From positions 1-47,134 of IMG/VR virus record IMGVR_UViG_3300046048_000102: a DNA stretch of 47,134 nucleotides. One strand, 5' to 3'. The notes under the pieces are model-generated. The model made no database searches. It worked only from the letters and a program-made list of their open reading frames with translations, and was not told the DNA's origin. Positions 22,830-47,134 of the stretch are shown here, piece by piece. Position 1 is the first letter of the stretch; each line of letters starts with the position of its first letter. This DNA comes from a virus. Position numbers and translations under genes: made by a program.

Positions 22830-22852
22830 TCTCCGTTCAGTGGGTGGAATTA
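22830..22852 (-). promoter_or_regulatory. Candidate phage RNA polymerase promoter, structural operon
   Basis: Minus-strand TAATTCCACCCACTGAACG, continuing GAGA, matches the 23-base T7 consensus promoter at 17 of 23 positions, including TAAT, CACT and the GGAGA start region. The same 19-base core occurs once more, at 33757-33775, with one difference. It overlaps the ribonucleotide reductase stop codon and lies just before the first morphogenesis gene, as class III promoters do. Confidence 0.65.
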
Positions 22853-33727: not shown

Positions 33728-33756
33728 CGAACTCCTTTCGGTACTTGATTTAAGAG

Positions 33757-33775
33757 CGTTCAGTGGGTGGCATTA
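33757..33775 (-). promoter_or_regulatory. Candidate phage promoter before RNA polymerase gene
   Basis: Minus-strand TAATGCCACCCACTGAACG, identical in 18 of 19 positions to the site at 22834-22852. It overlaps the TAA stop of the upstream small gene and lies 30 bases before the polymerase start. If used by the phage polymerase it would create positive feedback; T7 has its first phage promoters after, not before, gene 1. Confidence 0.6.
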
Positions 33776-33976
33776 GGGTGCCTTCCATGTTTCTTTTCGG
33801 GGTTGATAACAGGATTGTAATTCTATTTGTACCTCATACAATAACTGTTCGAACCTGGTCTGTCGCTCCTCTCTGTGGAGGTATCGCTGGGGCTCTTCGA
33901 ACCCCAGCACCTCCAAGAGTTTCAACCGCTCCTCATGCTCCATGCTGTTGAAGACTTCGGCAGCGGTCCTGGCCAT
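33773..33976 (-). CDS. Small early protein, helical
   Basis: 67 aa, charged and helical (AAEVFNSMEHEERLKLLEVLG, then HREERQTRFEQLLYEV). The start overlaps the upstream stop as TAATG, indicating coupled translation. No family recognised; it is the last early gene before the RNA polymerase. Confidence 0.65.
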   Translation of the reverse strand: MARTAAEVFNSMEHEERLKLLEVLGFEEPQRYLHREERQTRFEQLLYEVQIELQSCYQPRKETWKAP

Positions 33977-34284
33977 TACTGCACCGTGCCTTCGGGTTTG
34001 ACGATCTTGGCGTACTCGTCACGCACGAGTTGCTTGAACTTCTCGACAGCTTCACGTTTGTCGCCTTCGGAATCCCGAAGAAGTTCGTAGTACCGGATGC
34101 CCGACGCCGAAGCATAGGACCGTGCAGGTACCAGCACGTTGATCTTATCGCCGTCTTTGCCTTTCCAAACCGAAGCTCCGACGAGCTTCAGGTTTCCGAG
34201 CAGGCCGTCGTCGAAGTGAATCTCGACATCAGCCAGTTTGTTCGGAGGATTTCCCGAAGAGTTGAGGATAAAGTGCAACCGCAT
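33976..34284 (-). CDS. Small early protein of unknown function
   Basis: 102 aa, mixed alpha/beta (MRLHFILNSSGNPPNKLADV, DGLLGNLKLVGASVWKGKDG, then YYELLRDSEGDKREAVEKF). GGGAG lies before the ATG. It overlaps the peptidase gene end by 56 bases. The domain with DKINVLVPARSYASASG followed by a helix is protein-like, but no family is recognised. Confidence 0.65.
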   Translation of the reverse strand: MRLHFILNSSGNPPNKLADVEIHFDDGLLGNLKLVGASVWKGKDGDKINVLVPARSYASASGIRYYELLRDSEGDKREAVEKFKQLVRDEYAKIVKPEGTVQ

Positions 34285-35608
34285 TGTAGTGCTCCCTTTC
34301 TACCTGCCTGCTTTTGTCAGGAGGTGGTGTTTTGGTGTTGGGTTTAACGTCTCGCCAGGTCGCTGAATGAAAATCTCTGTGGAAATCACTGCGAAAATCC
34401 GTGGGAAAACACATCTTCTTATAGTTGGTTTGAGTTCTGGAGTTTTTTCGCATTGCTTGTCGGGCTAGCTTCTTCAATTTTTTGCGGCGTTTTCTGGCCT
34501 GGGATTTTGTGAGTTTCTTGTCTTTCTCTGGTTCTCCAGAGTGCATCCACTTTGGAGGTGTCATTGGCATCGGCGGGTTCGGGCTTACAGGAGGTGCTTT
34601 GGGCATCTCCTTTCCGTTCTTGATGTATTCCTCTGCCGTTTTCTTGTCATACATTCCGTCTTTCCGAAGATCGGTAAGACAGTTGGTACATACGTACCCG
34701 AAGGTCAGGTTGGTGTATGTTGTAAAATCGCACACCTGCCCGCACATATCGCAGTATCCTGCATCGGGTATTTGTCCTTCGTTGTATTCTTCCGAAGACA
34801 ACGGAAGCTCTTCGATATCATCTTCAACAGCCACTAGTTTCTTGGTGGCCTTATCGTACTGATAGACTTTCGCTTGACCATAGATGTTGCTAGATGGGCT
34901 GGACTGCCGGGGCTTGGGAAGAACGAAGCGGAGTTTCTCCTCTGCATTCTGGCAGTGTTCCAGGAGCTTGTAGACGCACTGGAGTGTGTACCTTAGGGCT
35001 GGTATCGAAAGATACTCATCGTGGAAGTGGTTCCTCTCATACCCAGCGGACACGTTGACTGAGCATTTGCGCAGTCCTTCGCCAAGTATACTGATGTCGG
35101 AGAACATCCCCCAGTCTTCTACGAAGCCGAAGCTTTCGATGAACTGGATAAAGGATGGGCCTTCGTCGTTATAGAAGACCGCTTCTCCATGCCCTCGTCG
35201 GTCTATCTCCAGAAAGAACGGATAAGCCTGTAGTTCTGGTGCCAGCTCATAACTAGCAGCCCAGGCCCCCGTTCCACCTGACTCTTCGCCATCGCACAGT
35301 AGTAAGCCAGGTTTTGGGTTTAAGTTCTCCCAGAGTACTGCAAGAGCGTACACGCCTGCTCTGTCATCAGCGCCCAAGCCCTGTGGAGAACTTAAAGTTT
35401 CAAGCTCTTCGTCCAGATAAATCGTCTCTGGTTTTTCCGCATGCACCGTATCGATGTGTGCCACCAATAAGGGCATTTTGGTAGACCCAGGGACGTATAC
35501 GTAGTCGTTGGTCCGAATTGCATTGGTTGTCAGTTTACCGAAGTAACTGAGCAACCGTTGCTCCGATGCTTTGAGAGCATCTATGATGCCCAGTTTCGGT
35601 TCTATCAT
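34229..35608 (-). CDS. MH-clan (M20/M28/M42-like) metallopeptidase fused to zinc ribbon and basic tail
   Basis: 459 aa. Residues 1-220 carry the co-catalytic zinc peptidase pattern: LLVAHIDTVH (His51, Asp53), GLGADDRAGVYAL (Asp81), CDGEESGGTGA (Glu108/109), FFLEIDRRG (Asp136) and ERNHFHDEYLS (His194/196). All ligand positions expected for an aminopeptidase or amidohydrolase of this clan are present. Next comes a zinc ribbon (YCDMCGQVC...VCTNCLTDLRKD), a Pro-rich linker and a very basic segment (KSQARKRRKKLKKLARQ) that may bind nucleic acid. It overlaps the preceding gene by ATGA. A peptidase of this type in an early operon suggests action on a host peptide or amide, but the substrate is unknown. 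Confidence 0.8.
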   Translation of the reverse strand: MIEPKLGIIDALKASEQRLLSYFGKLTTNAIRTNDYVYVPGSTKMPLLVAHIDTVHAEKPETIYLDEELETLSSPQGLGADDRAGVYALAVLWENLNPKPGLLLCDGEESGGTGAWAASYELAPELQAYPFFLEIDRRGHGEAVFYNDEGPSFIQFIESFGFVEDWGMFSDISILGEGLRKCSVNVSAGYERNHFHDEYLSIPALRYTLQCVYKLLEHCQNAEEKLRFVLPKPRQSSPSSNIYGQAKVYQYDKATKKLVAVEDDIEELPLSSEEYNEGQIPDAGYCDMCGQVCDFTTYTNLTFGYVCTNCLTDLRKDGMYDKKTAEEYIKNGKEMPKAPPVSPNPPMPMTPPKWMHSGEPEKDKKLTKSQARKRRKKLKKLARQAMRKNSRTQTNYKKMCFPTDFRSDFHRDFHSATWRDVKPNTKTPPPDKSRQVEREHYNAVALYPQLFGKSSEQTG

Positions 35609-36828
35609 CCTGTCTCTTCTTCCTCCTTTTCTGGTACTCCGCAGCGGTTACAGTATGGGTTGGCGTCGTCATCCTCAACATAGCAGTCGGTTGCTCTTTC
35701 ATAGATGAGCAGACCGCACTCGGTGCATTGTATAGTGGTAGATTCTATGCACGTTTCGCACATGGTCCCAAAGCCTTCTACCTCATCTGAGTTATCCTGT
35801 GGGCTGTCATGGTCGCAACATTCGCAGTAAAAAAAGTATTGGTTATAGCAGTATTCGCAATATACATCTCCATCAATCCAGTAGCTATCGTCTTCATTCA
35901 TGCCGTTACCGCAGCTGGAGCACTGGAGACGGTCGCCTTCTGCTTGTTCCCACATGCAGCTGTTACTGCAGCCGATCATGTAAGTATTTCCGTCTACCTC
36001 CGAGTGCACGGTGCTTGGGTCAAATGTCTTACTGCACGAGGGGCAGCTCCATCTGTAGTCTGTAGTCAGTAGATCAAAGTTGCCTTTTATTGCTGTGCAT
36101 TTGTAGGGCGAATGATTCGGAAAGATTGGAAGTACCTCACGATCCCGGTTAATCCTGGTGTATTCGATTGTAGCGCCTGAAAGAGATTCCAAAGCTCTTA
36201 CAAAGATACTCCTGGGGATCTCTCTTCGGGAGCATTGGGTGTAGTTATTCATCAGGTAAGCTGTATGCTGATCTTGGATGTAACAGATCATACGACCTTT
36301 TCCATATCGGCCCCGTTTTTGTGATTCAGTTATGTCGGCAGGTAGGGTTGGTCTAATCAAGATAGTTCCACATGCAGGCGAGTCGTCTATGAACCTACCG
36401 TTGTAGTGGTTACATCCGCCTTCTTGGAAGCAAGAGTCGTCGTCTCCGAACAGCCCAAATTTCTCACTGTTGAAGTAGTCGGGTTTCATCTCAGTTCTTG
36501 CTTCGATTTGAACATACAGTTCCCCGATCGCAGCGACTATCTGAGGCCACACTGCTGCGACCTCCTCTTTTTTCATTCCGCTCTCCAGTACGAACTTCTT
36601 GATGTGTTTGACTATCTTTGTTCCTTTGTGATCGTAGAACTTCTCGGTGTAAAGGTACTCTTCGCTCAGGGCTTGCCAGGTTAGGTCTCGGCAGTTCGTG
36701 TATCTTGTGCGGTCCTCTGCAAACTCGTGCCACTGAGACCATTTGAACATGTAGTCAAGGATGCGATATATATCCTCAGAATTTCCACCACCGTTTTCGA
36801 TGGTGACTATGTTGGATATGTTGTTCAT
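35605..36828 (-). CDS. Multi-zinc-finger early protein
   Basis: 407 aa. The N-terminal 260 residues are unrecognised (EDIYRILDYMFKWSQWHEFA, YFNSEKFGLFGDDDSCFQEG, SRREIPRSIFVRALESLSG). From about 263 on there is a string of paired cysteines: WSCPSCSKTF, CSNSCMWE, LQCSSCGNGM, VYCEYCYNQYFFYCECCDHD, TMCETCIES, IQCTECGLL, YCNRCG, enough for four or five treble-clef/zinc-ribbon units, ending in an acid tail EKEEEETG. It shares an ATGA overlap with the peptidase gene; since both have zinc ribbons, they may act together. It might bind nucleic acid or a host protein. Confidence 0.75.
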   Translation of the reverse strand: MNNISNIVTIENGGGNSEDIYRILDYMFKWSQWHEFAEDRTRYTNCRDLTWQALSEEYLYTEKFYDHKGTKIVKHIKKFVLESGMKKEEVAAVWPQIVAAIGELYVQIEARTEMKPDYFNSEKFGLFGDDDSCFQEGGCNHYNGRFIDDSPACGTILIRPTLPADITESQKRGRYGKGRMICYIQDQHTAYLMNNYTQCSRREIPRSIFVRALESLSGATIEYTRINRDREVLPIFPNHSPYKCTAIKGNFDLLTTDYRWSCPSCSKTFDPSTVHSEVDGNTYMIGCSNSCMWEQAEGDRLQCSSCGNGMNEDDSYWIDGDVYCEYCYNQYFFYCECCDHDSPQDNSDEVEGFGTMCETCIESTTIQCTECGLLIYERATDCYVEDDDANPYCNRCGVPEKEEEETG

Positions 36829-36834
36829 TCAGGT

Positions 36835-36969
36835 TTATGTGTCCTCCCACTCTTGTTTTCTTTCCCTGTCGATGTTGAAGGACCCACAGAACGGGCAGTG
36901 GTCCCAGTGGAAATTCTCGTCGACCCAGAACTCTCTGCAGTCAAGGCACATGTACTTGTAGGTTACCAT
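36835..36969 (-). CDS. 44-aa zinc-ribbon protein
   Basis: MVTYKYMCLDCREFWVDE, then HWDHCPFCGSFNIDRERKQE: two CxxC knuckles 14 residues apart, a minimal zinc ribbon. AGGGAG lies about six bases before the ATG. It ends a few bases before the multi-zinc-finger gene, whose own ribosome binding site is weak, so translation may be coupled. Confidence 0.75.
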   Translation of the reverse strand: MVTYKYMCLDCREFWVDENFHWDHCPFCGSFNIDRERKQEWEDT

Positions 36970-36971
36970 CG

Positions 36972-37166
36972 CTACTCCCTTGCCAGTCCGCAGTAACCCC
37001 TGCGGTTTGACCAGTCGTGTAGAGGCTCATCGCTCTTCGATTCGTCCCACCAGATCCAGGCCATGCACGATGCCCCTGAGCACACTCTTGAATGGATCGG
37101 GTGTGCTGCTTGTGGTCCACAGCAGTCGTAAAATCCTGCTTTTTTCGGTGTAAGCAGTTGCTTCAT
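36972..37166 (-). CDS. Small Cys/Trp-rich early protein
   Basis: 64 aa: KKAGFYDCCGPQAAHP, RVCSGASCMAWIWWDES, then NRRGYCGLARE. Five cysteines and a WIWW cluster suggest a small zinc-binding or disulfide-free metal fold. GGGAGG lies eight bases before the ATG. No family recognised. Confidence 0.65.
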   Translation of the reverse strand: MKQLLTPKKAGFYDCCGPQAAHPIHSRVCSGASCMAWIWWDESKSDEPLHDWSNRRGYCGLARE

Positions 37167-37169
37167 GGT

Positions 37170-37397
37170 TTACCACCTCCCGCGCTTTGAGGGTTGGCGT
37201 TGGGTTCCTTCGAGAGCTTCTCTTTCCTCTCGGAGAATCTTAATCATGTTCTGCTGCGCACACCAGTCTTGGTGTAGCACATTGTACTGCAGTTCCAGAT
37301 ATTCTAGTTTATCTAAGGTTCTGCAGTGCTCGGCTTCCAGTTCCTTGATCCTATCGTTCTGCTTGTCGAGCTCGATAATGAACTCTGTGAGTGTCAT
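37170..37397 (-). CDS. Small coiled-coil early protein
   Basis: 75 aa starting MTLTEFIIELDKQNDRIKEL, a continuous heptad-like helix (ELEAEHCRTLDKLEYLELQY) with a basic tail (RQPSKRGRW). The internal ATG at 37397 is preferred over one at 37418 because GGGAGAG lies just before it, with the longer form starting inside the preceding gene. Unknown function. Confidence 0.65.
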   Translation of the reverse strand: MTLTEFIIELDKQNDRIKELEAEHCRTLDKLEYLELQYNVLHQDWCAQQNMIKILREEREALEGTQRQPSKRGRW

Positions 37398-37398
37398 G

Positions 37399-37683
37399 TT
37401 ATTCTCTCCCTGGACCATCGTCCTGGTCGTAGTAGCCTCTGTTTGAGCCCTCCAGTTCTACTACGCTCTGAATGTGCACAACGAATGTCTTAATCTTGAA
37501 GGTCTGACGATTCTCAAACTGAATATCGAATCCAGTTTTGTAGGGCGTAGGTGTGATCTTGTGGAGCGCCCAGGGGTAGATTCTGTCGTGTTTGAAATCC
37601 TGGACGTTGAGCCTAACGCCATACTCATCGTCACATTGATGTATGCACGCTAAGATCGCTTCAAGGCAGTGCTTGACTTCCAT
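37399..37683 (-). CDS. Small early protein of unknown function
   Basis: 94 aa, alpha/beta (MEVKHCLEAILACIHQCDDE, then TFKIKTFVVHIQSVVELEG), with an acidic end. AGGAGGT lies six bases before the ATG. No family recognised. Confidence 0.65.
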   Translation of the reverse strand: MEVKHCLEAILACIHQCDDEYGVRLNVQDFKHDRIYPWALHKITPTPYKTGFDIQFENRQTFKIKTFVVHIQSVVELEGSNRGYYDQDDGPGRE

Positions 37684-37693
37684 TATGTACCTC

Positions 37694-37903
37694 CTATTTG
37701 TCTAGAGGTTCGCAGTTGTTGCCAACCAGTTTGACCTGAATGTTGTGGGCATCGTAACCTATTTCGTAGAACTCTTCGGACACCTTGTCTTTCACCTGCT
37801 CTTCGGTCAGGTTATCCTTTGGGATGTACGCAGTGACAGTGGCGCTGATTTCCCAGTACCTGCTGCACTTGTCGTTAAGAAGGAACAGTATATATTTCGG
37901 CAT
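37694..37903 (-). CDS. Small early protein of unknown function
   Basis: 69 aa starting MPKYILFLLNDKCSRYWEIS, then ATVTAYIPKDNLTEEQVKDK and a beta/alpha end; compact alpha-beta look. The start at 37903 is chosen because GAGGAGG lies nine bases upstream; an upstream ATG at 37921 would put that site inside the coding region. It overlaps the previous gene by 29 bases. Confidence 0.65.
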   Translation of the reverse strand: MPKYILFLLNDKCSRYWEISATVTAYIPKDNLTEEQVKDKVSEEFYEIGYDAHNIQVKLVGNNCEPLDK

Positions 37904-38042
37904 CTTCGTTTGCCTCCTCATGTTTTCGGATGATGTCCTGCTGCATGGACAGTAGTTCGTTGAGACGATCTATCGTTTTTTGCTGACGAGAAATCGTCTT
38001 GTTGAGATGCTGTACTTCCTGTTGTAACTCTCGGAGTGGCAT
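37875..38042 (-). CDS. Small coiled-coil protein
   Basis: 55 aa: MPLRELQQEVQHLNKTISRQ, continuing QKTIDRLNELLSMQQDII, then an acidic tail. Clear heptad pattern. The start overlaps the upstream stop as TAATG. A much longer upstream frame is only a shadow of the neighbour. Confidence 0.65.
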   Translation of the reverse strand: MPLRELQQEVQHLNKTISRQQKTIDRLNELLSMQQDIIRKHEEANEDAEIYTVPS

Positions 38043-38344
38043 TAGGGTGTCCAGTATCCAGGAGGGTCCTGGATATTCGGAAGGACAGGACCGAAAGCCT
38101 TGTCTTGCAAGGTTTCCAGATAGTCCAGGTCGTTTGCGGCCAGTGCGACGATGTACTCGGTGGTCTCCACGGGCCAACGCTTGTAGGCGTGCTGCAGCCA
38201 TGCTACGAAGTCACCAACTGCCTGTCCGTCCATGCAGAAGTCTGCATCTGAAAAGGCGAACGAATCGATAAACGTGAGACGTTGTGAAGCGTTAGCTTGT
38301 TGGAAGGCTGCAAGTTCAGCCTGCCGTTTTTCCCAGGTATCCAT
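38042..38344 (-). CDS. Small early protein of unknown function
   Basis: 100 aa, helical and aromatic (KRQAELAAFQQANASQRLTF, AVGDFVAWLQHAYKRWPVE, IVALAANDLDYLETLQDKAF), ending PPGYWTP. AGGAGG lies a few bases before the ATG. No family recognised. Confidence 0.65.
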   Translation of the reverse strand: MDTWEKRQAELAAFQQANASQRLTFIDSFAFSDADFCMDGQAVGDFVAWLQHAYKRWPVETTEYIVALAANDLDYLETLQDKAFGPVLPNIQDPPGYWTP

Positions 38345-38352
38345 TGGTCCTC

Positions 38353-38655
38353 CTAGTTAGGAAGTTGGTCTTGCTCTACGACAGCACAGATGGTAGCGCA
38401 GTGCAAAGCTGCTTGTTTGTAGAAGTTGTTAAGTGCACTTTCAATGTTCTCAGGTTGAAGAGCGATCTTCAATCCCTGCCCGAAGGCCCATGCAGCGTCC
38501 GAACTAGCACCATAGGCTTGAATAAAAAGACGCTCATTCGTGGTATCTCCTCCAAGGACAATTACTGATTCCAGGAGAGTCTCTTGTCCATCACCATTGG
38601 TAATTCGTACTGTCTTTTCATCTGGATCTATTTCTATTACGAGTAGGCGTTTCAT
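38353..38655 (-). CDS. Small early protein with conserved leader
   Basis: 100 aa starting MKRLLVIEIDPDEKTVRITN, then ESVIVLGGDTTNERLFIQAY and a helical end (DAAWAFGQGLKIALQPENIE). The start at 38655 is chosen over an upstream ATG at 38739 because of the GAGGAGG before it; the same leader (GAGGAGGGCGCAAAAATGAA) precedes the gene at 39472. No family recognised. Confidence 0.65.
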   Translation of the reverse strand: MKRLLVIEIDPDEKTVRITNGDGQETLLESVIVLGGDTTNERLFIQAYGASSDAAWAFGQGLKIALQPENIESALNNFYKQAALHCATICAVVEQDQLPN

Positions 38656-38674
38656 TTTTGCGCCCTCCTCTTGC

Positions 38675-38745
38675 CCCTGGCTCTCCGCCAGGGTGTGATG
38701 GTGCATCAGTAGAATAGCCGTGTAAGGTTTTGGCCTCACACGGCT
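38675..38745 (-). promoter_or_regulatory. Two strong hairpins in the leader of the 38655 gene
   Basis: A 12-bp hairpin with six-base loop (38716-38745) and a 7-bp hairpin with five-base loop (CCCTGGC/GCCAGGG, 38675-38693) lie between the tRNA-like element and the gene. No T run follows, so RNA processing or stability elements (like T7 RNase III sites) are more likely than terminators. Confidence 0.55.
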
Positions 38746-38839
38746 TTCTAGTGATGTGGGCTAGTGCATGTTCAATCGCCCATGCTCTGGCTCCTCTCAG
38801 AATGGATTGGTTCGCTCTCCTTTCTGATGTATTTAAGAT

Positions 38840-38915
38840 TGGCAGTCCCGGCCGGATTTGATACCTGCGTTTCCAGGTTGAGAGACCTGGCGTCCTGAAC
38901 TTAGACGACGGGACC
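38840..38915 (-). tRNA. Degenerate tRNA-Glu(CUC)-like element
   Basis: 76 bases on the minus strand fold as a near-tRNA: acceptor GGTCCCG/CGGGACT (one G-U), discriminator G, encoded CCA, a D arm CGTCT...AGGAC as in tRNA-Glu, anticodon arm CCAGG/CCTGG with loop CTCTCAA (anticodon CUC), and a T arm GCAGG/CCGGC. Flaws: one extra T in the anticodon arm, one extra base in the T loop (TATCAAAT), a mismatch in the T stem and no GG in the D loop. It is likely a decaying tRNA or a tRNA mimic. Confidence 0.55.
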
Positions 38916-38922
38916 ATGTAGC

Positions 38923-39204
38923 CTACTCGGCGTTGCCTTCGCAGCCTTTCGGCACATATTTGTTTTTGATCCAATGGCCGTTTCTCTTGAACCAAACGCT
39001 ACCATCGGTTTCGATCTTGAGCCCCAGTACTCCGTGGTAGTTAGCAACGTCTTCGAGGCAGGAGTCTGTTGGCTGCAGTTCGTCGTACATGTAGATCTCG
39101 ACGATGTTGTATTGAATGGGTTCGGGCGTGGTTGCTTTGTACGCTTCCACGCCCCCAAAGGTTACCAGCGCTGCCAGGATTATGACGAAAATGCTATTCA
39201 GCAT
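38923..39204 (-). CDS. Small membrane-anchored or secreted early protein
   Basis: 93 aa from ATG at 39204 (a TTG two codons upstream is possible). The N-terminus MLNSIFVIILAALVTFGGVEA is a signal peptide or membrane anchor; the rest is polar with SVWFKRNGHWIKNKYVPKGC and two cysteines. It starts inside the end of the preceding gene, so translation is coupled. No family recognised. Confidence 0.65.
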   Translation of the reverse strand: MLNSIFVIILAALVTFGGVEAYKATTPEPIQYNIVEIYMYDELQPTDSCLEDVANYHGVLGLKIETDGSVWFKRNGHWIKNKYVPKGCEGNAE

Positions 39205-39472
39205 TTTCAAGCCCTACGTAGGGTGTCTGCTGGTTTTCAGGCTGGTTTACGCATTTGGTGCAACGGTCTTTGCTGCACGGGTCGTCGCAGATTGCCTCTT
39301 TGTTGAATCGTGCAGGGTTGTTGTACTTGAGGTGATAGTCGAACTTGTTCACGAACTCTTCGCTTCTTCCGAAGTGGCAGTATGTGCAGGCAAAGATTAC
39401 AGCCAGTCTGCCGTTGAGGAGCGGGAGTTCGCTGGTCTCGATTCTCGATCCACATGCAGGACATCCGTTCAT
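39194..39472 (-). CDS. Zinc-ribbon early protein (Lar-like N-terminus)
   Basis: 92 aa starting MNGCPACGSRIE and followed by IFACTYCHFGRS, a CxxC...CxxC zinc ribbon resembling the Lar restriction-alleviation family layout. A second cysteine cluster (ICDDPCSKDRCTKCVNQ) lies near residues 61-77. The leader is shared with the gene at 38655. Relation to Lar is only a resemblance in cysteine pattern. Confidence 0.65.
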   Translation of the reverse strand: MNGCPACGSRIETSELPLLNGRLAVIFACTYCHFGRSEEFVNKFDYHLKYNNPARFNKEAICDDPCSKDRCTKCVNQPENQQTPYVGLENAE

Positions 39473-39621
39473 TTTTGCGCCCTCCTCTTGACTCCAGGCC
39501 CCCCGTTTTCCCTTTTGGGGTGGCTCTGGGTTTTGACTACAAGCATCTATCCAGAACCAGGTAAGCGACAGTCCTTTTAGCTATCTGCTCCCTGGGTCTG
39601 GTAGAGGCTCGGAGTTCCCGC
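39473..39621. other. Gene-free gap of 149 bases with a leader hairpin
   Basis: I see no coding sequence. Close to the downstream gene there is a C/G-rich foldback around 39490-39530 (CCAG...CTGG arms enclosing CCCC/GGGG), just upstream of the shared GAGGAGGGCGCAAAAATG leader. Possibly an RNA processing or translational control element. Confidence 0.4.
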
Positions 39622-39858
39622 CTACACGTGAGAGGTGGTGAAGGGTAACTCGGCCTGCTGTGCCTGCTCCTTCTCCTGCTCCTGAACCTGCTCGGGAGCC
39701 TTGAAGGGTTCGATGTCGCTGGTTACCGTGACCAGGTAGTTCTCCTGACGGATGAACCAGTCGAGCCTTGCTCCGGTCCACTTTACCGTCTTGTTCTCGT
39801 TGGTCGGAAGGTGTTTCACCAGCGCTTTGTACATCTTGTTCGGTTGCAGTCGAACCAT
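39622..39858 (-). CDS. Small early protein of unknown function
   Basis: 78 aa: MVRLQPNKMYKALVKHLPTN, then TVKWTGARLDWFIRQENYLV and an acidic Gln/Glu-rich tail (EQVQEQEKEQAQQAE). AAGGAGG lies eight bases before the ATG. It is the first gene after the terminator at 39901-39945. No family recognised. Confidence 0.65.
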   Translation of the reverse strand: MVRLQPNKMYKALVKHLPTNENKTVKWTGARLDWFIRQENYLVTVTSDIEPFKAPEQVQEQEKEQAQQAELPFTTSHV

Positions 39859-39900
39859 GGTGTAACCTCCTTTATGTTTTTGATTTGGGGGTTGCCTATA

Positions 39901-39945
39901 AAAATTTTATCTCCCCCTTTCGCGCTCTAAGGGGGAGATGAAATT
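39901..39945 (-). terminator. Terminator-like hairpin within the early region
   Basis: A nine-base stem ATCTCCCCC/GGGGGAGAT (39931-39939 with 39909-39917) is followed on the minus strand by AAAATTTTTAT; A/T pairs can extend the stem before the T run. It sits in a 203-base gap (39859-40061) that holds no convincing gene, so it probably ends or attenuates the first early transcript. Confidence 0.7.
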
Positions 39946-40061
39946 GCATTTGACTGTGCGCTGTTGACCTGAATTGGATTAATGAGTCGACGACAGGCAA
40001 GAGCCGTGACAGCGTGAAGTGTGCTGGCACGGCGCTTGCAGTCGACGAATGAGGAAGTTGC

Positions 40062-40400
40062 CTATTTTTGCACTTCGCCTTGGCCATCGCATGTGGTGCA
40101 TACGATTTCGCCTTGGCCCCCGCATAGCCAGCACTTGGTCTTGGTCTGGCTGTTGTATATGGTGTAGCCTGTGCCGTTGCATGGTACGCACGGCTCCATG
40201 CCTGTGCCTCTGACTGGATCTGTGGCCCCGGCTCTGTCTACGCCGTGGCACTTGGAGCAGTTGGCGAACTCGTCCTTGTACATAGGCTCGTATCGTGCTC
40301 CATCGTCTACGAATGAGGCAGGAGCGATTTCTACGACCTTGCCTATGTCTGCCTTACTGTACTTGGTCTGCGGTTTTATGACGTAGCTGTCAAGGGCCAT
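40062..40400 (-). CDS. DnaJ-type cysteine-rich zinc-finger protein
   Basis: 112 aa. Four CxxCxGxG-like motifs as in the DnaJ zinc domain: CSKCHG (48-53), CVPCNGTG (71-78), CWLCGGQG (90-97) and CTTCDGQG (101-108). There is no J domain and no substrate-binding C-terminal domain. In DnaJ this region binds two zinc ions and helps hold unfolded protein. TAGGAGG precedes the ATG inside the upstream micropeptide gene. It might modulate the host DnaK system or simply be a zinc-stabilised small early protein. Confidence 0.8.
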   Translation of the reverse strand: MALDSYVIKPQTKYSKADIGKVVEIAPASFVDDGARYEPMYKDEFANCSKCHGVDRAGATDPVRGTGMEPCVPCNGTGYTIYNSQTKTKCWLCGGQGEIVCTTCDGQGEVQK

Positions 40401-40401
40401 G

Positions 40402-40479
40402 TTATCCTCCTATGTAGTGGATGATGCCGTAGAGGAGCGTTAGGACTACCCAAGGTGCTAAGGTATAGATTGTCTGCAT
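40402..40479 (-). CDS. 25-aa transmembrane micropeptide
   Basis: MQTIYTLAPWVVLTLLYGII then HYIGG: a single hydrophobic helix. The ATG overlaps the stop of the upstream gene (TAATG), and the next gene's ribosome binding site lies in its last codons. It shares the core L-[AS]-P-W-[IV]-V-L-[ST] with the 27-aa peptide at 41201-41284, suggesting the two are paralogs. Confidence 0.65.
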   Translation of the reverse strand: MQTIYTLAPWVVLTLLYGIIHYIGG

Positions 40480-40790
40480 TAGAACGAGCCTCCTTCTGTG
40501 AGAAACATTATTTTCTTGGCGAACAAGACGGCTTCGGCTCTGCCGTCGACTGTGGTGCAGTCCCACGCCTCTGCGACTGAGAGGAGAGCAGTTACGGCAT
40601 CCCGCAACTGCTCTACCATCGCCATTGACTCCCGCCTGACCTGAAGCCCGCCTTTGGCGTTCTCTGCGGTCTGGTGGAGCGTCCTATGGGTTCGCACTAG
40701 GTCTTCGTTCTGGCTCTTAAGCGTCTTGATCTGACGCTCTGCCTGTTGCAGTTTAGCCACCAGCATCTTATTGAGTTGCTGTTCTGTCAT
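40479..40790 (-). CDS. Small coiled-coil early protein
   Basis: 103 aa: an N-terminal heptad helix (LNKMLVAKLQQAERQIKTLK), a middle linker, and a helical C-terminus (MVEQLRDAVTALLSVAEAWD). AAAGGAGG lies before the ATG. No family recognised. Confidence 0.7.
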   Translation of the reverse strand: MTEQQLNKMLVAKLQQAERQIKTLKSQNEDLVRTHRTLHQTAENAKGGLQVRRESMAMVEQLRDAVTALLSVAEAWDCTTVDGRAEAVLFAKKIMFLTEGGSF

Positions 40791-40804
40791 GGTATGATCC
40801 TCCT

Positions 40805-41182
40805 TTAGCCGTATATCTGGCCGTTGGCGTTGATGACGGTGACTGGTACTCCCGCTTTTTTAGCACGACGCACCATGTCTGCCGTGCCTCTGCTCTGTTC
40901 GATGTTGTCGTGGAAGGCAAGCACCATGCTCGGCTTGCCTTCGTCTAACATCTGTTGGTTGCGAATGGGACCAGCTGCTTTGCCGTGCTGGTCCCACTTG
41001 GCCGGGAAGGCCCTAATGTGACAGTCGAGAGACTTGGCAACCGCAGCACCGATCTTGTCTGCGCCTCTGCAGTCGCCGTGGACTATGGTTAGGCCCTTGA
41101 AGTGCTTACGGTATGGTGCTATGTATGACCGAATCACGTCCGCACTGGTCCAGTTTCTGTCACCACAGATTAAGAATATCAT
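40805..41182 (-). CDS. SLOG-family (DUF2493, YspA-like) protein
   Basis: 125 aa. Rossmann-like start MIFLICGDRNWTSADVIRSY, the VHGDCRGAD motif at 35-42, and HGKAAGPIRNQQML at 66-79, all diagnostic of DUF2493 in the SLOG superfamily. SLOG proteins bind nucleotides or nucleotide-derived ligands; the role of the phage members is unsettled. A good ribosome binding site (AAAGGAG) precedes the ATG. Confidence 0.88.
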   Translation of the reverse strand: MIFLICGDRNWTSADVIRSYIAPYRKHFKGLTIVHGDCRGADKIGAAVAKSLDCHIRAFPAKWDQHGKAAGPIRNQQMLDEGKPSMVLAFHDNIEQSRGTADMVRRAKKAGVPVTVINANGQIYG

Positions 41183-41200
41183 GCTCTGCTCCTTTCTGGT

Positions 41201-41284
41201 CTAGAAGTTGAGGTACATGATGGTGATTACGATAGAGAGCACTATCCAGGGAGACAGGATCATTACGACGATAGCTTTGTTCAT
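41201..41284 (-). CDS. 27-aa transmembrane micropeptide
   Basis: MNKAIVVMILSPWIVLSIVI then TIMYLNF: one hydrophobic helix with a Lys near the N-terminus. The start overlaps the upstream stop as ATGA. Shares the SPWIVLS core with the micropeptide at 40402-40479. Role unknown; membrane-acting early peptides in phages often modulate host transport or block superinfection. Confidence 0.65.
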   Translation of the reverse strand: MNKAIVVMILSPWIVLSIVITIMYLNF

Positions 41285-41403
41285 GACAGCCCCTCCTCAT
41301 AGACCATGGTGGTGTGGCATTGGCAGCAGAGTTGCCCGTCCACTGTGTCGCCTTCTGCTCCGCACTTGATGCAGATCTCGATCTGGATCATGTCCTGGTC
41401 CAT
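41281..41403 (-). CDS. 40-aa zinc-knuckle protein, first early gene
   Basis: MDQDMIQIEICIKCGAEGDT then VDGQLCCQCHTTMVYEEGLS: CxxC and CCxC pairs that would bind one zinc. GAAGGAGC lies eight bases before the ATG. It is the first recognisable gene after the structured gene-free segment and opens the leftmost early cluster. Confidence 0.7.
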   Translation of the reverse strand: MDQDMIQIEICIKCGAEGDTVDGQLCCQCHTTMVYEEGLS

Positions 41404-41417
41404 GTTCTGCTCCTTCG

Positions 41418-41828
41418 GTGTGGGTGTTAGGCGAGGGAAGCGTCGCCTTCGCAATTAGAGGCGACGCTGGACGGAGCCTAATCACACACACTACAAACAC
41501 CCCACGAGGCGAGGCGTAAGCCGAGCATAGCAGTAAGCGCGGCTATCCGAGGCGCTCTTGCTTCATGCCGAGGAACCGAGCGAAGCGAAGGTCCCACGAC
41601 AAGTGGGTGCCGTGCTAAGCCGAACGCTCCGGGGTCATGTGAGGCTGGTACTGGTCGAAGCGACGGCTCTTCGTCGCTGAGACGAGGAGCGTAGCGACGA
41701 CGGGCTTCGAGTGGGCCAAGCTAGGTAGATGACGTAGGCGCAGTTGCCTGGGCAGCCCAGCGTTATTCAAGCCGTGTGCCAGCGGTTGGCATTATGGCTG
41801 GCGCATGGCTTGAAGCTGGGCGTAGGCA
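41418..41828 (+). ncRNA. Candidate structured RNA / highly folded gene-free segment
   Basis: No convincing frame on either strand. Strong nested stems: 41418-41491 (outer 9-bp arm with one mismatch, TTAGGC/GCCTAA, inner GCGTCGCCT/AGGCGACGC); 41655-41710 (TCGAAGC/GCTTCGA enclosing AGCGACG-CGTCGCT-AGCGACG, which can pair in two alternative ways); and 41745-41828 (TGCCT/AGGCA, GCCCAGC/GCTGGGC and an 18-bp arm 41766-41783 with 41797-41814). The two non-Watson-Crick pairs of the 18-bp arm are G-U if read as plus-strand RNA but A-C if minus, favouring the plus strand. It could be an RNA gene or a DNA structure at the genome end. Confidence 0.5.
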
Positions 41829-41845
41829 CGTTGCTTTTAGATCTT

Positions 41846-42226
41846 AATGCTACACCCAGAGCTACTTCCAGGCGAACCTATACAAGTTCATGTGAGGCGT
41901 TATTGTCAGGGTTAATGAACCTAGAGCAGGGTGTTGCTCGTGGTTGTTGCCTGATGCCCTGTATTTGGGGTTGCTCTAGGTGTGGCTCTGTGGGTGTAGA
42001 ACTTGGTGTGGCTCTGGGTGTAGAACTTGGTGTGGCTCTGGGTGTAGAGCCGAGGGTAGAGCGAGGAGCAAAAAGGCAGGTGGCAGCAAACACACATCCA
42101 ACCCCCAACTGACCCCTGAAACAGGCAAAAGGGTACCCCCGAGCGACACCCGAGGCTTGCCCTGGAGGTTGATTTGCTCTGGAAGTGGCTCTTGGTGTGG
42201 CATTTGACGTTGCTCTAGGTGTGGCC
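41846..42226. repeat. G/T-rich direct repeat array bounded by 26-bp inverted repeat
   Basis: A core near GCTCTGGGTGTAG recurs at about 41972, 41985, 42011, 42035, 42188 and 42212 on the plus strand and once inverted at about 41849. Units of 24-26 bases (41981-42006, 42007-42030, 42031-42052) are nearly identical. The 26-base arm 41846-41871 is the inverted partner of 42179-42204 (two G-U type and one other mismatch). A T6 run lies at 42233-42238 just after the array. Frames through it merely repeat TPRATS-like units and lack binding sites, so I treat it as non-coding, possibly the terminal/packaging region. Confidence 0.65.
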
Positions 42227-42311
42227 TTGGCATTTTTTCGGGGTAAGGGGGGTAAATTTAAGCGCACCCGTAGCGTTGACCTCTTCAGACTTTTCTACCA
42301 AATTTTGTCCT

Positions 42312-42369
42312 GGGTGAGGGGGAGGACAGCATCAACACCTAACTGCCCTCCTTATTCCCCATCTCACCC
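42312..42369 (-). terminator. Nested hairpin directly after the 56-aa gene
   Basis: GGGTGAG/CTCACCC encloses GGAGGGCAG/CTGTCCTCC (minus strand), starting at the base after the stop codon of the gene at 42370-42540. The only imperfect pair is G-U on the minus strand, consistent with an mRNA structure. No T run follows, so it is either an intrinsic-like transcript end or an RNA stability element at the end of the late operon. Confidence 0.5.
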
Positions 42370-42540
42370 TTACTGATCGTATTCAGTAGTCCGTTCTATT
42401 AGAACTGCGATTAACTTAGCTAGATCGTGTAGGTCTCGTTCCAGTTTCTTGAAATGCCCATTTAGTATCACCCACACAGGGACTAGAATTGCTACTGAAG
42501 TAGCTAGTAATTGAAGCATGTGATGGGTCCATACATGCAT
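42370..42540 (-). CDS. 56-aa membrane protein
   Basis: MHVWTHHMLQLLATSVAILV then PVWVILNGHFKKLERDLHDL and a helical charged end: one membrane segment followed by a cytoplasmic helix. GAGGTGA lies before the ATG. It is the last gene before the gene-free terminal segment, where T7 has the tiny gene 19.5. Its PVWVIL core recalls the micropeptides at 40402 and 41201. A small holin-like role is possible. Confidence 0.65.
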   Translation of the reverse strand: MHVWTHHMLQLLATSVAILVPVWVILNGHFKKLERDLHDLAKLIAVLIERTTEYDQ

Positions 42541-42584
42541 ATATCGTCACCTCATCTTTAGAAGTGAAGAGTGAGTCTAATACA

Positions 42585-42914
42585 CTATCGTAACTTCACT
42601 TCAGCTACTTGTTTCAGATATGTCATAAAGTCACCAACAAGGGTTTCGATTACAGATTCGTCATTATATGCATCCCCGAACTTAGTCGTACGCTCGGAGA
42701 GTATAGCATGAACACCCTCATGCACAAGTGTATCCAGGAGTTCCTCTGGGTGTTGCTTGGATCTATAGCAGATCACCTTCTCATTATGGAAGCACTTACC
42801 ATAAAAGACCTCACCTGGACCAGCCTTGGCTGTCTCCTGGTCTTCGGCCTTGGTGAACTTCCTTAGCGCCCACCACTTACCAGCGATGAGCACCCTCTTG
42901 GGTAAGTTACACAT
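42585..42914 (-). CDS. Zincin-like (HExxH) small protein
   Basis: 109 aa starting MCNLPKRVLIAGKWWALRKF, with LVHEGVHAILSER at 63-75: an HExxH zinc-peptidase motif (His65, Glu66, His69) and a possible third ligand in NDESVIETLVGDF. The preceding CYRSKQHPEELLDT and GEVFYGKCF fit a small SprT/ImmA-like zincin fold. The start at 42914 is chosen because AAGGGGA precedes it. Position just after the terminase is unusual for a peptidase; the target is unknown. Confidence 0.75.
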   Translation of the reverse strand: MCNLPKRVLIAGKWWALRKFTKAEDQETAKAGPGEVFYGKCFHNEKVICYRSKQHPEELLDTLVHEGVHAILSERTTKFGDAYNDESVIETLVGDFMTYLKQVAEVKLR

Positions 42915-43036: not shown

Positions 43037-44710
43037 CTATCTAAGTTTCTTCCAGGAGGTGTTCGAAGGAGGAGCGCTGCCCTGCAGCACGAAGATCTCA
43101 TTCATCTTCCTCAGCTCTTCATCCCACATTCGGGACTTATGATCTTCCTGTATGTTTTGCTCATCCCGAGCCATGACTTCCACCCAGTATGCTACCGCCA
43201 TAGCTAAAGCATCCAACCTATCGTCGTGCTTTAAGCTGCCTCGGTCTCTGGTGAGATGAGTGAGTTGGTAGCAGAAAGAGTAACGTACATCGTCGTACTC
43301 GAGGTCGGCTTTAAGCACACTTGGGTCTATAACCATCTTATGTCGGTTAAAGACTGGCTCAAGTGTGTCTATGATCCGCTTCTCTTTCTGAACATTGTGT
43401 CGAATCTCCTCTGTCGAACAAGGGTAGATACGGGCTAGGACTGGCGAGAGGATCTGGGTGAACATACCATCTCCGAAGTTGGATTCTATGATGATGTAGT
43501 TCACCTTATGCTCCTTGGCGATCTGGGCTAGCTTTACCAGGACTCCTTCTTCGTAGCCACCCTGTAATCCGCCAAGAGCCGTACAATAAAGCGTACCGTA
43601 CGAGTGTTTAACAACTGCATAGCCAGTTTCATCACGGCCCCTCCCTGAAGGGTCAATCACCATGACAGACCCTTGGTACTCGGCCCACTTCTCGTCTACG
43701 TATAGAGGACGGTAGAAGCGGTCGCCTGTAAAGCCGACATTAGGTATATCCTTGATCTGCTGCTGTGGACCTGATGCCCACCCTATGCTGATAGGTGCCT
43801 TGTCTCCTACGCACTCCAAGACGATTAGGTCTGACTGCTTGAGTGGAAAGCGTAGCATGTCGCTCAACGTAGTGTCGAGCATGAACTGAAGGGCAAACCC
43901 AGAGCGCCCATAAGCAGACTCTCGTTCCAAAAGGTCTATCTCAGTAAAGCGACTGGGGTCAGTTGGGCTCCCTGAAATGGATGGGTTTCTCTCCAGCTCC
44001 TCCATCAGGGAGGGGGCGAGAGAGCCATCATACTTGCCTAGGTCAGCAACTTGGGGGAACCGAGCGGTCCAGATTCTGCATTGGTATCCTTTTTCACGGA
44101 GTCGATTGTAGACCGAGGCCTCTGTCTGAGGAGTTCCCAGATAAGTGATTCGACCCACCTCGGGCATGATAATAGCCTCGAACTCCATAACCGTCTGCAG
44201 CAACTTATCTCGCTTGTCTTCGGTGTCACTGTTATTCAAAACCTCCACGTCATCAGCGATGATGTGGGTGGCCCGTGATCCGGTCATTTGCCCGAACACG
44301 CCAACGGATTTCACGCTAGGAGCGTGAGCGGCTCGAGCAGGAGCCACATCGAAAGCAATCTTGGAGCTCCTCATGTCGTCATCCGGTGCCAGGTGTTTGA
44401 GGATATCGACCTCCGTAATCAACCGTTGGGTGAAGATGGAGAAATCGTCGGCCCTCTGCTTACTGGCTGACACGATGAGGAATTTCTGATCGGGATCGTT
44501 GAGCAGGGACCACAGCACATAAGCTGAAGTGATCCAGCTCTTACCAACCCCACGGAACGCCTCGATGATCTGCCGCTTTGGCCCATACTGCAACCAGTAG
44601 GCTATCTCATATTGGCGTGGGGTAGGATCGGGGAGCCTCAGATGCTTCCAAATTACAAAAAGGAAATTTCTGAAGTCCTCCTTGACTAACTGCAGGTCTG
44701 TCTTCCCCAA
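43037..44710 (-). CDS. Large terminase subunit, DNA maturase B (gp19-like)
   Basis: 557 aa (T7 gp19 586). Walker A region IIEAFRGVGKSWITSAYVLW (about 48-67), Walker B THIIADDVEVLNN (about 148-160), coupling motif ITYLGTPQTEASVYN, and nuclease motif SVMVIDPSGRGRDETGYAVV (about 347-366). It packages concatemeric DNA and cuts the ends. There is no ATG; TTG at 44710 is the start, since the frame is closed by TGA shortly upstream. Confidence 0.96.
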   Translation of the reverse strand: MGKTDLQLVKEDFRNFLFVIWKHLRLPDPTPRQYEIAYWLQYGPKRQIIEAFRGVGKSWITSAYVLWSLLNDPDQKFLIVSASKQRADDFSIFTQRLITEVDILKHLAPDDDMRSSKIAFDVAPARAAHAPSVKSVGVFGQMTGSRATHIIADDVEVLNNSDTEDKRDKLLQTVMEFEAIIMPEVGRITYLGTPQTEASVYNRLREKGYQCRIWTARFPQVADLGKYDGSLAPSLMEELERNPSISGSPTDPSRFTEIDLLERESAYGRSGFALQFMLDTTLSDMLRFPLKQSDLIVLECVGDKAPISIGWASGPQQQIKDIPNVGFTGDRFYRPLYVDEKWAEYQGSVMVIDPSGRGRDETGYAVVKHSYGTLYCTALGGLQGGYEEGVLVKLAQIAKEHKVNYIIIESNFGDGMFTQILSPVLARIYPCSTEEIRHNVQKEKRIIDTLEPVFNRHKMVIDPSVLKADLEYDDVRYSFCYQLTHLTRDRGSLKHDDRLDALAMAVAYWVEVMARDEQNIQEDHKSRMWDEELRKMNEIFVLQGSAPPSNTSWKKLR

Positions 44711-45009: not shown

Positions 45010-47134
45010 AGGATACAGCGAGTACCTCAGCAGCAGTAGGAATCAAGCCTCGGTACTGCCAACCTCCATTCTCCCCCCTATCGAAGCGAAGGGCATCTCC
45101 CTGCGCCAGCACCATCTGGTTCGATTTAACGAGGATGTGAACTTCGGTGTCAGCTGCAGGGGATTTGTCGGTCAACCACTTGACGTGGCTGTAGTCCAGA
45201 TCTCCAGCTTCGATATCGAAGGTTATGGAGTCGTGCTCGGTCCCACTCCCCGATACCTTAGTTACACTGAGATCGGATTCGATAGTGTACCCACTGCCAG
45301 CAGCGGTGACTTCAAAGGTAGCGATATCATCCGATCCATCGACGGTGAGGACAGTGATCTGTCCTCCAGTCGCACCGGACTGAACGAGAGCCAGAACATC
45401 ACCAGCAGCTGCCGTAGCGGTAGCCACGGAGCAGGTGAGGTAGCTCCCAAGCCTCAAGCCACCCAAGAGAACATAGTCGGTGTCGAGAACCTGGGCTACT
45501 CCATCCTCTTCCACCACATAGGTCTCCTCGGTAGCACAGGCGGCATCGATCGTGTTCTCGATGGCCAGCTTGTTACCCAGAGCAAACGTATGGCACATCC
45601 GGACTCCATCCCCGTCGTCTACAAGGGCCTGGGTGTCATTAATCGTGCAGATGAGGCTCCCAGTACCAGAGAGCGTATACGAGGACGCAGGAACAGTAAT
45701 CCACTCGTCTTCTGTGGTGATGGCAGAGATCGTGAAGGTCGCATCCCCGGTGTGACCCGTGGAGGTGACATCATCCTCTACCGTGTAGTCCTGCCCAGGG
45801 TTCATGACCGCAAACGTGGCGATCGCAGACCCAGCCAGGGTGAGGACTTCAATATAGCAGCCAGACCCAGATTCACCCACGGGGGTAGCATCAAGGGTGA
45901 TGATATCTCCCACTTCGTAGTCAGACCCACCGTCCTTGACAGCGATGGTCTTGACTCCCCCAGCCCGAGCTTGGCGCTCAATCGTCTTGGAACCCGTAGA
46001 GGTCGAATACGCACTGACCGTTGGGGTTGCCCCGACGTGGCTCGAGGTGAAGGTGAATACGTTGGTAACTGCATTGGTGAAGGTCGCCCAGAGCCAATCG
46101 CCCTGAGTCGGCTTCCTGCGTTCCCTGGAGATGGTCCCATTCAGCTCGTAAGCATAGGGGCCGATCTCATCCACATACACAGGACCAGTAAGGTCAGCAG
46201 CGTACGTAGGGTCTGCCAGGAACGTGACCGTCCCACCAGACAGTGTGTAGTCGCCAATAGCCGTAAGATCGAAGCGGCCACCAGTGTCCCCGCTTGCATC
46301 ATGGAGCTCCAGGTCATCAGCGACGGTATAGCCAACACCCCTCGAGGTGATGGCAAATGTAGCGATGTCATCCGATTCATCGACGGACAGGACCGTAATC
46401 CTGCCACCCTTGTCGGTGGTCTGCATGACTTTGAGCACGTCCCCGGCTGCGAACGTTCCGGTCTCCGTGGAGATGTGACCAGCTCGAATGGAACCGTAGG
46501 TGTTGATCTTCATCTCAGTGAAGGCCGCATCGGGAGGAGTCAGGTTGTTCCCGTCACCCGCCCGAGCAATCTTGATCGAGTACGTCTGAAATGCGGTAGC
46601 ATCATCGACGTTTGTATCGATCGCATTGATCGTTGCAGCGGCGGGGAGCCCAACGTTGGTGATCTCCCATACTGGCTTGTTATAGGTCTTACCAGAAGCA
46701 TCGACATCAGCGATCGTGGCGATGCTCAGCGTACAGTCGGCTCCCGCAGCGGAGTCGGTCGTAGTTGCCAGACCAGCTTCGACGTGGTAGCCACTCCCAC
46801 GAGTTACGAGCCCGACAGTCGCTACTGCGTCTGAGGCGCCCAGCGTGAGAACTTCATATACCCCGTTAGCCCCACCTGACTGAGTAATCGTCAGGAGATC
46901 ACCAACAGCGTAGTTGGTTCCACCAGCAGCTACGGTTACGGTGCCGATAGGCCCGTAGGTCCTCACGCCACCCTGGGCGAAGCCTTTGGTGTACGTTCCG
47001 GTTCCATCAGCGATAGTGAAGTCGTTGATTGATCCATCAGGGAAGACGGAGACCACTGTGACCACAGCGTCAGCTGGGCTCGAGGTTCCCGTGTAGCCCT
47101 GGCAGATAAGAGTGAACTTGTCACCCACAACGTA
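45002..47134 (-). CDS. Large repeat-containing virion protein, C-terminal part (enters from the right edge)
   Basis: 710 codons open to the right edge, with no start in the window; the N-terminus is at 1-670. The chain repeats a unit of about 55-60 residues: a GDxL strand, ITVLTVDGSDDIATFEVT-like strand pair, then GSGYT(I/V)xxDL. Copies are seen at VLSVDESDDIATFAITSRG, VLTVDGSDDIATFEVTAAG, VLTLAGSAIATFAVMNPG and VLTLGASDAVATVGLVTRG. This is a tandem beta-structure, probably trimeric. The end DALRFDRGENGGWQYRGLIP looks like a compact cap domain. It ends overlapping the small terminase gene. Confidence 0.75.
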   Translation of the reverse strand, partial: YVVGDKFTLICQGYTGTSSPADAVVTVVSVFPDGSINDFTIADGTGTYTKGFAQGGVRTYGPIGTVTVAAGGTNYAVGDLLTITQSGGANGVYEVLTLGASDAVATVGLVTRGSGYHVEAGLATTTDSAAGADCTLSIATIADVDASGKTYNKPVWEITNVGLPAAATINAIDTNVDDATAFQTYSIKIARAGDGNNLTPPDAAFTEMKINTYGSIRAGHISTETGTFAAGDVLKVMQTTDKGGRITVLSVDESDDIATFAITSRGVGYTVADDLELHDASGDTGGRFDLTAIGDYTLSGGTVTFLADPTYAADLTGPVYVDEIGPYAYELNGTISRERRKPTQGDWLWATFTNAVTNVFTFTSSHVGATPTVSAYSTSTGSKTIERQARAGGVKTIAVKDGGSDYEVGDIITLDATPVGESGSGCYIEVLTLAGSAIATFAVMNPGQDYTVEDDVTSTGHTGDATFTISAITTEDEWITVPASSYTLSGTGSLICTINDTQALVDDGDGVRMCHTFALGNKLAIENTIDAACATEETYVVEEDGVAQVLDTDYVLLGGLRLGSYLTCSVATATAAAGDVLALVQSGATGGQITVLTVDGSDDIATFEVTAAGSGYTIESDLSVTKVSGSGTEHDSITFDIEAGDLDYSHVKWLTDKSPAADTEVHILVKSNQMVLAQGDALRFDRGENGGWQYRGLIPTAAEVLAVSYV
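46774..47134. repeat. Terminal overlap, right copy
   Basis: Second copy of positions 1-361, with 11 substitutions, all in the part nearest the right edge (46901-47134), while 46774-46900 equal 1-127 exactly. The differences cause only a few conservative amino-acid changes (for example SIKDF to SINDF and TNYVVGD to TNYAVGD), as expected for two alleles of the same gene. Confidence 0.85.

Follow-up and report, generated by a model that had tools for sequence, protein, structure and literature searches.

The segment at positions 41418–41828 is probably part of the left-end region that serves early control and RNA processing in a T7-like (autographivirus-like) phage, an early promoter and leader zone with an R0.3-like stem-loop; it looks ordinary in kind and not like a new class of RNA. 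This reading builds on gene content, the position of the genome end, repeats, the non-coding nature of the segment and a stem-loop with its geometry, all of which were established by computation. The window, i.e. the whole stretch of DNA analyzed, is a viral contig, 47,134 bases long, that carries a T7-like gene set with all genes on the minus strand. In addition to the terminase large subunit and a single-subunit RNA polymerase (Table 1), the set includes a primase/helicase, a DNA polymerase, a head-tail adaptor and tail proteins. The segment lies between the terminase gene at the late end and the early genes, where a phage with a single-subunit RNA polymerase of the T7 type has its left end. 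The closest relatives by terminase are IMG/VR fragments with 66–79% identity, and named phages stay below 60%; a search for terminase relatives in genome contigs returned none.

The record maps as a circle of ~46.8 kb, its first 127 nt recurring exactly at 46774, and the physical genome ends must therefore lie somewhere inside the record. Over the whole end overlap (46774–47134 versus 1–361), 350 of 361 bases are identical, 127 of them in the exact stretch, and the imperfect part suggests strain variation in the assembly at this place. An assembly with a circular map is compatible with direct terminal repeats.

Table 1 Features of the left end and its surroundings; distances are counted from the predicted left end.
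Feature	Position	Strand	Remark
Single-subunit RNA polymerase gene	31337–33727	−	T7-like gene set
Second early gene, 27-aa hydrophobic peptide	41201–41284	−	GAGGAGGGG upstream
First early gene, 40 aa, CxxC...CxxC pattern	41281–41403	−	AAGGAG upstream; ATG 875 nt from left end
Leader stem-loop directly upstream of first early gene	41421–41486	−	792–857 nt from left end
AGCGACG / CGTCGCT / AGCGACG, two alternative pairings possible	41659–41699		All three words present
Strongest hairpin of the segment, 18-bp arms, 13-nt loop	41766–41814		464–512 nt from left end; two G-U pairs on plus (A-C on minus)
Short imperfect repeats of ACCYAGAGC type, both orientations	41846–42236		Repeat families D1, D2, I1, I3, I4
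C-run 25 nt inside predicted left end	42247–42252	−	25 nt in T7 and phiKMV, 24 nt in S2B
Predicted first genome base (left end), reading leftward	42277	−	Terminus rule; LUZ100 annotation would give 42265
Conserved motif ending at predicted concatemer cut site (right border of previous genome unit)	42278–42303	−	Terminus rule
Terminase large subunit gene	43037–44710	−	T7-like gene set

To locate the left end, we derived a terminus rule from IMG/VR loci downstream of the terminase gene, where comparison of the relatives revealed one conserved element, a AAAAATCTGAAGGGGTA-like motif with a spaced CCCC. The rule comprises a motif near AAAAATCTGAAGGGGTA, the cut, 24–26 nt and CCCC. It yielded 75 strand matches in 74 of 120 sequences, compared with 2 on shuffled sequence; many of the non-matching sequences stop short of the site or are not terminase loci, and one locus (L015) contributes two of the 75 matches, its minus-strand match being a chance hit. 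Checked against annotated termini, the end of the motif coincided exactly with the annotated start of the terminal repeat in T7, T3 and S2B and fell within 1 nt of it in gh-1, T3 and gh-1 having been checked only after the motif had been fixed. In LUZ100, which has a more divergent motif, the annotated repeat start lies 12 nt inside the position given by the rule, and we count this against the proposed assignment. PhiKMV has 25 nt between the cut and CCCCC, as in the window, but lacks the AAAAATCTGAA motif before the cut. For LUZ100, direct terminal repeats of 244 bp and host-type early promoters are described (PMC10134795). We do not claim novelty for the terminus motif.

In the window, the conserved cut-site motif is present with a C-run ~25 nt inside, and the segment accordingly falls 450–860 nt inside the predicted left end, past a repeat block and directly before the first early gene. 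The original prediction had left open whether the hairpins form a new structured RNA read from the plus strand or a structure needed at the DNA ends: the link to the DNA end holds as a matter of location, whereas the new plus-strand RNA gained no positive support.

The repeat block next to the end is made of short imperfect repeats (Table 1). Its first 431 nt contain 48 repeated 8-mers, compared with 2.6 in shuffles, and the first 450 nt of T7 contain 57, compared with 3.9; the ACCTAAAG-type repeats of the T7 left end are related to those in the window but differ in wording. The block is probably the terminal repeat and/or flanking short repeats. Both arms of a 26-base inverted repeat, which the original prediction had placed to the right of the 18-bp arm, fall inside this block. 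We rejected it as a local RNA stem because its two arms, in opposite orientation, belong to a family of short repeats that occurs in both orientations.

Among well-described left ends, that of T3 (NC_003298) contains the terminal repeat, A0, phiOL, A1–A3 and the RNase III site R0.3, with the first CDS at 901. T3 and the window share an identical cut-site motif and spacing, a gene-free stretch of near-equal length (900 nt in T3, 874 nt here) and, at a nearly equal distance from the end, a stem-loop immediately ahead of the first early gene. Unlike in T3, the window is G+C-rich and no E. coli-type promoters were found; the two leaders show no sequence similarity. T7 (NC_001604) has the exact cut-site motif, its own short repeats and 924 gene-free nt before the first CDS at 925, but no hairpin in its first 925 nt as strong as the 18-bp one of the window. 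PhiKMV (NC_005045) likewise has a long gene-free left end (1745 nt; first CDS at 1746). The T7, T3 and phiKMV records all annotate promoters in this gene-free left end.

A scan for sigma70-like promoters on the gene strand found none in the left 873 nt, a point against an early promoter zone here, where the sigma70 type may not be that of the host; the same scan on T7 gave three gene-strand sites, which precede the annotated A1–A3. This leaves two options: a host with other promoter sequences, or promoters at another location. As a separate observation, two perfect copies of TAATNCCACCCACTGAACG occur on the minus strand, at 22834–22852 (start of the structural genes) and at 33757–33775 (just upstream of the RNA polymerase gene), with 0.02 matches expected in shuffles at up to 3 mismatches. 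TAATNCCACCCACTGAACG is likely the promoter of the phage RNA polymerase. No promoter of this type lies within the segment, and a search of viral contigs with the pattern returned none.

The leader stem-loop consists of a lower stem, an internal loop and an upper stem of 10–11 bp, and this interrupted structure stands just before the first early gene, as R0.3-type sites do. In the gene sense, it folds with −28.1 kcal/mol (z = −5.3), in the opposite sense with −33.8 kcal/mol (z = −6.0), and in neither sense was any of 500 shuffles as stable. R0.3 of T3 occupies 822–875, i.e. the stem-loop and the ATG of the window (Table 1) stand at closely corresponding places. Since the internal loop is larger than in T3 R0.3 and the putative R1 stem of gh-1 is weak (z = −1.4), the likeness rests on position and shape, and by analogy we regard the element as a candidate R0.3-like RNase III site or 5′-stabilizing site. 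The first early gene, which starts just left of the segment, is followed by one for a hydrophobic peptide; in the near relative L003, a hydrophobic frame of 26 codons occupies a comparable place, and a search of viral contigs for relatives of the neighboring small protein found none.

The dense hairpins of the original prediction were borne out by folding. On the plus strand, the segment reaches −207.0 kcal/mol (z = −7.0) and on the minus strand −167.9 kcal/mol (z = −4.65), with none of 100 shuffles as stable in either case. The 18-bp arm is present (41766–41783 paired with 41797–41814), as are the three words of a proposed switch between alternative 7-bp pairings (AGCGACG at 41659, CGTCGCT at 41672, AGCGACG at 41693). 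No frame in the segment scores like the genes of this phage, in agreement with the earlier view that no reading frame is convincing, and a coding function within the segment was rejected. The claim of four imperfect pairs that are G-U on the plus strand only was likewise correct: the 18-bp arm has two imperfect pairs, both of this kind, and the 26-base repeat has three, of which two are of this kind and the third is a plain C/T mismatch. By our estimate, four such pairs would all fall on the same strand with a two-sided chance of 1 in 8, and two of the four sit in copies of the repeat family.

Fold energy alone is no mark of an RNA gene, since coding windows reach similar values: among 58 regular windows of 411 nt per strand (12 shuffles each), coding stretches reached z = −5.9 on the plus and −7.5 on the minus strand, and z depends on where the window is placed. 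We therefore rejected the idea that the extreme z of the segment is unique. Chance does not readily produce the 18-bp arm, as an equally strong stem appeared in 2 of 200 shuffled versions of the left 1 kb; the same holds for the 411-nt fold and the leader stem-loop with their shuffle counts of zero. The five stems scoring at least 7 in this kilobase were matched in number by 6 of 100 shuffles, and the stem excess is thus modest. Over the whole early arm (33728–42277), strong stems are enriched (10, compared with 0–5 in 20 shuffles), and the remaining genome shows no excess (7, compared with 1–8 in 6 shuffles). Within this arm, we also observed two strong hairpins with 17-bp arms close together, at 39903–39945 (the strongest stem of the genome) and 39997–40039, for which a terminator or a further RNase III-type site is possible. 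A further element among the early genes, at 38843–38915 on the minus strand, matches the Rfam tRNA family with 36.6 bits and was not called by ARAGORN; it is possibly a degenerate tRNA or a tRNA-like element.

That the plus strand and not the gene strand folds better counts against an early leader and speaks for a rival reading, in which a plus-strand transcript, e.g. from an A0-like promoter, would be a new structured non-coding RNA with its fold as the functional product. Among 116 windows of 411 nt, 41601–42011 favors the plus strand most, and at the left end of both T7 and T3 lies a leftward host promoter, A0, which points toward that end. LUZ100, itself T7-like, is reported to make antisense transcripts, though elsewhere in its genome (PMC10134795). 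Against such an RNA, about 24 of the 39 kcal/mol that separate the strands also appear in dinucleotide shuffles (means −166.5 and −142.7), and over 43 left ends the strand difference tracks G/C skew (r = −0.80; near-duplicates L035, L052, L055 and L097 left out), with several phages showing a similar difference in the absence of a comparable structure. Because the strand difference follows the skew, we rejected the asymmetry as proof of an RNA. The definedness of the structure on the plus strand was matched by 6 of 60 shuffles, and in the left kilobase no plus-strand sigma70 site reached the scan threshold, the one weak site scoring 8/12.

The comparison with Rfam that had been proposed, including the large phage families GOLLD and ROOL, gave no match in 41180–42600 at gathering thresholds; at E values up to 10, there were four chance-level matches, all far below gathering scores. 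GOLLD and ROOL share with the segment a large fold predicted between phage genes, but the segment spans ~410 nt and has no Rfam match. Taken together, we consider a plus-strand non-coding RNA quite improbable. Its more specific form, in which the leftward A0-like transcript of T7-like left ends would have become, in this lineage, a well-folded ~400-nt structured RNA antisense to the early leader and acting early in infection, seems to us the least probable of the explanations weighed here.

A homologous segment was found neither in phage or plasmid collections nor among the fetched relatives, and none of these searches produced an alignable relative of 41418–41828. Exact hairpin patterns had no match in one search of viral contigs and matched six contigs in another; five of these have no stem at the match, and the stem of the sixth (L126, score 9) was judged a chance hit. 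Shared 7-mers with 18 other left ends, counted on both strands, were no more frequent than in dinucleotide shuffles, the 36 comparisons giving scattered values with a maximum z of 2.7 and no strand pattern. In 36 non-redundant left ends (40 of at least 1 kb minus four near-duplicates), the mean fold z was about −1, near that of upstream control stretches. Most left ends thus show no excess structure, which we count against the favored assignment, and a hairpin zone as a general trait of T7-like left ends was rejected. Both left-end comparisons, this one and that of G/C skew, used the T7 and S2B ends and left out the L015 minus-strand match and the end fragments L118 and L119.

Where relatives do have strong stems, these stand at differing distances from the end (0–200 nt in L003, 400–800 nt in L034, 200–400 nt in L037). 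The left end of L034 offers two observations of its own. At L034:4833–4934, a near-perfect inverted repeat with arms of ~37 bp (z = −13.3 in a 200-nt window) draws sub-threshold microRNA-family matches in Rfam. At L034:4940–5760, ~800 nt of gene-strand sequence ahead of the first early gene are purine-rich, apparently non-coding and without an Rfam match; by composition, this stretch looks more like a structured RNA than the segment of the window does.

The hairpins might instead act as DNA in concatemer processing: at an inverted repeat near the terminal repeat, a displaced strand could fold back, which would allow the terminal repeat to be copied. Such fold-back copying has reportedly been suggested for T7 concatemers at their hairpin end, and work by Chung, Nardone and Hinkle (1990), cited in PMC9503643, is said to be connected with the T7 terminal-repeat hairpin. 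The location suits such a role, with the cut site next to the segment and the start of the 18-bp hairpin immediately beyond the repeat block. In T7 infection, a hairpin that includes the terminal repeat has been described (PMC4281155). The larger imperfect inverted repeats of the T7 junction (39568–39608 and 39649–39686), however, are situated upstream of the repeat, across the cut from where the hairpins stand here, and the varying stem distances in the relatives, together with the lack of strong stems in most left ends, also speak against a role in processing, which we consider conceivable but unlikely.

The last explanation is that the stretch is a G+C-rich spacer that evolves fast and in which the extra stems serve no function individually. 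It would account for the lack of sequence or word conservation with the 18 other left ends, for the modest stem excess and for coding windows with similar z. It does not sit well with the stem-loop before the first early gene, which no shuffle equaled and which stands where T3 has R0.3. A further argument against a fast-evolving spacer comes from the nearest pair of relatives, L003 and L035, which are identical at 1097 of 1117 positions in the gene-free left end (98.2%; 20 differences) and at 1517 of 1638 in the terminase gene (92.6%; 121 differences), though this identity is mosaic. Recombination could explain the identity of the left end, because the pattern is patchy and coding stretches of 150–300 nt are likewise identical. 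Where L003 and L035 differ at paired sites, pairing is retained at 6 of 15 substitutions on the strand equivalent to plus, which we list among the points against a plus-strand RNA, and at 2 of 12 on the gene strand; these changes do not speak for a maintained fold and are too few for a verdict. We regard a spacer of this kind as rather unlikely.

Under the favored assignment to a left-end early control region, the order inward from 42277 would be cut site, repeat block, hairpin-rich zone and first early gene at 41403. By comparison with T3 and T7, the zone would carry the host-polymerase promoters used on the first DNA to enter the cell, as well as the early transcript's untranslated leader. 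The stem-loop at 41486–41421 may then serve as an R0.3-like RNase III cut site or as a 5′ protector before the first ribosome site; the remaining hairpins, the 18-bp one included, would add leader or spacer structure to a hairpin-rich early arm. While the position and shape of the leader stem are directly apparent, transcription of the zone and cleavage at this stem are what the analogy would predict.

In conclusion, what looked like an orphan RNA is probably a piece of standard anatomy. The terminus rule is a useful by-product: motif plus spacing show in the sequence where many metagenomic T7-like phages have their physical left end, and terminal repeats, early leaders and candidate RNase III sites can thereby be placed in phages never brought into culture.
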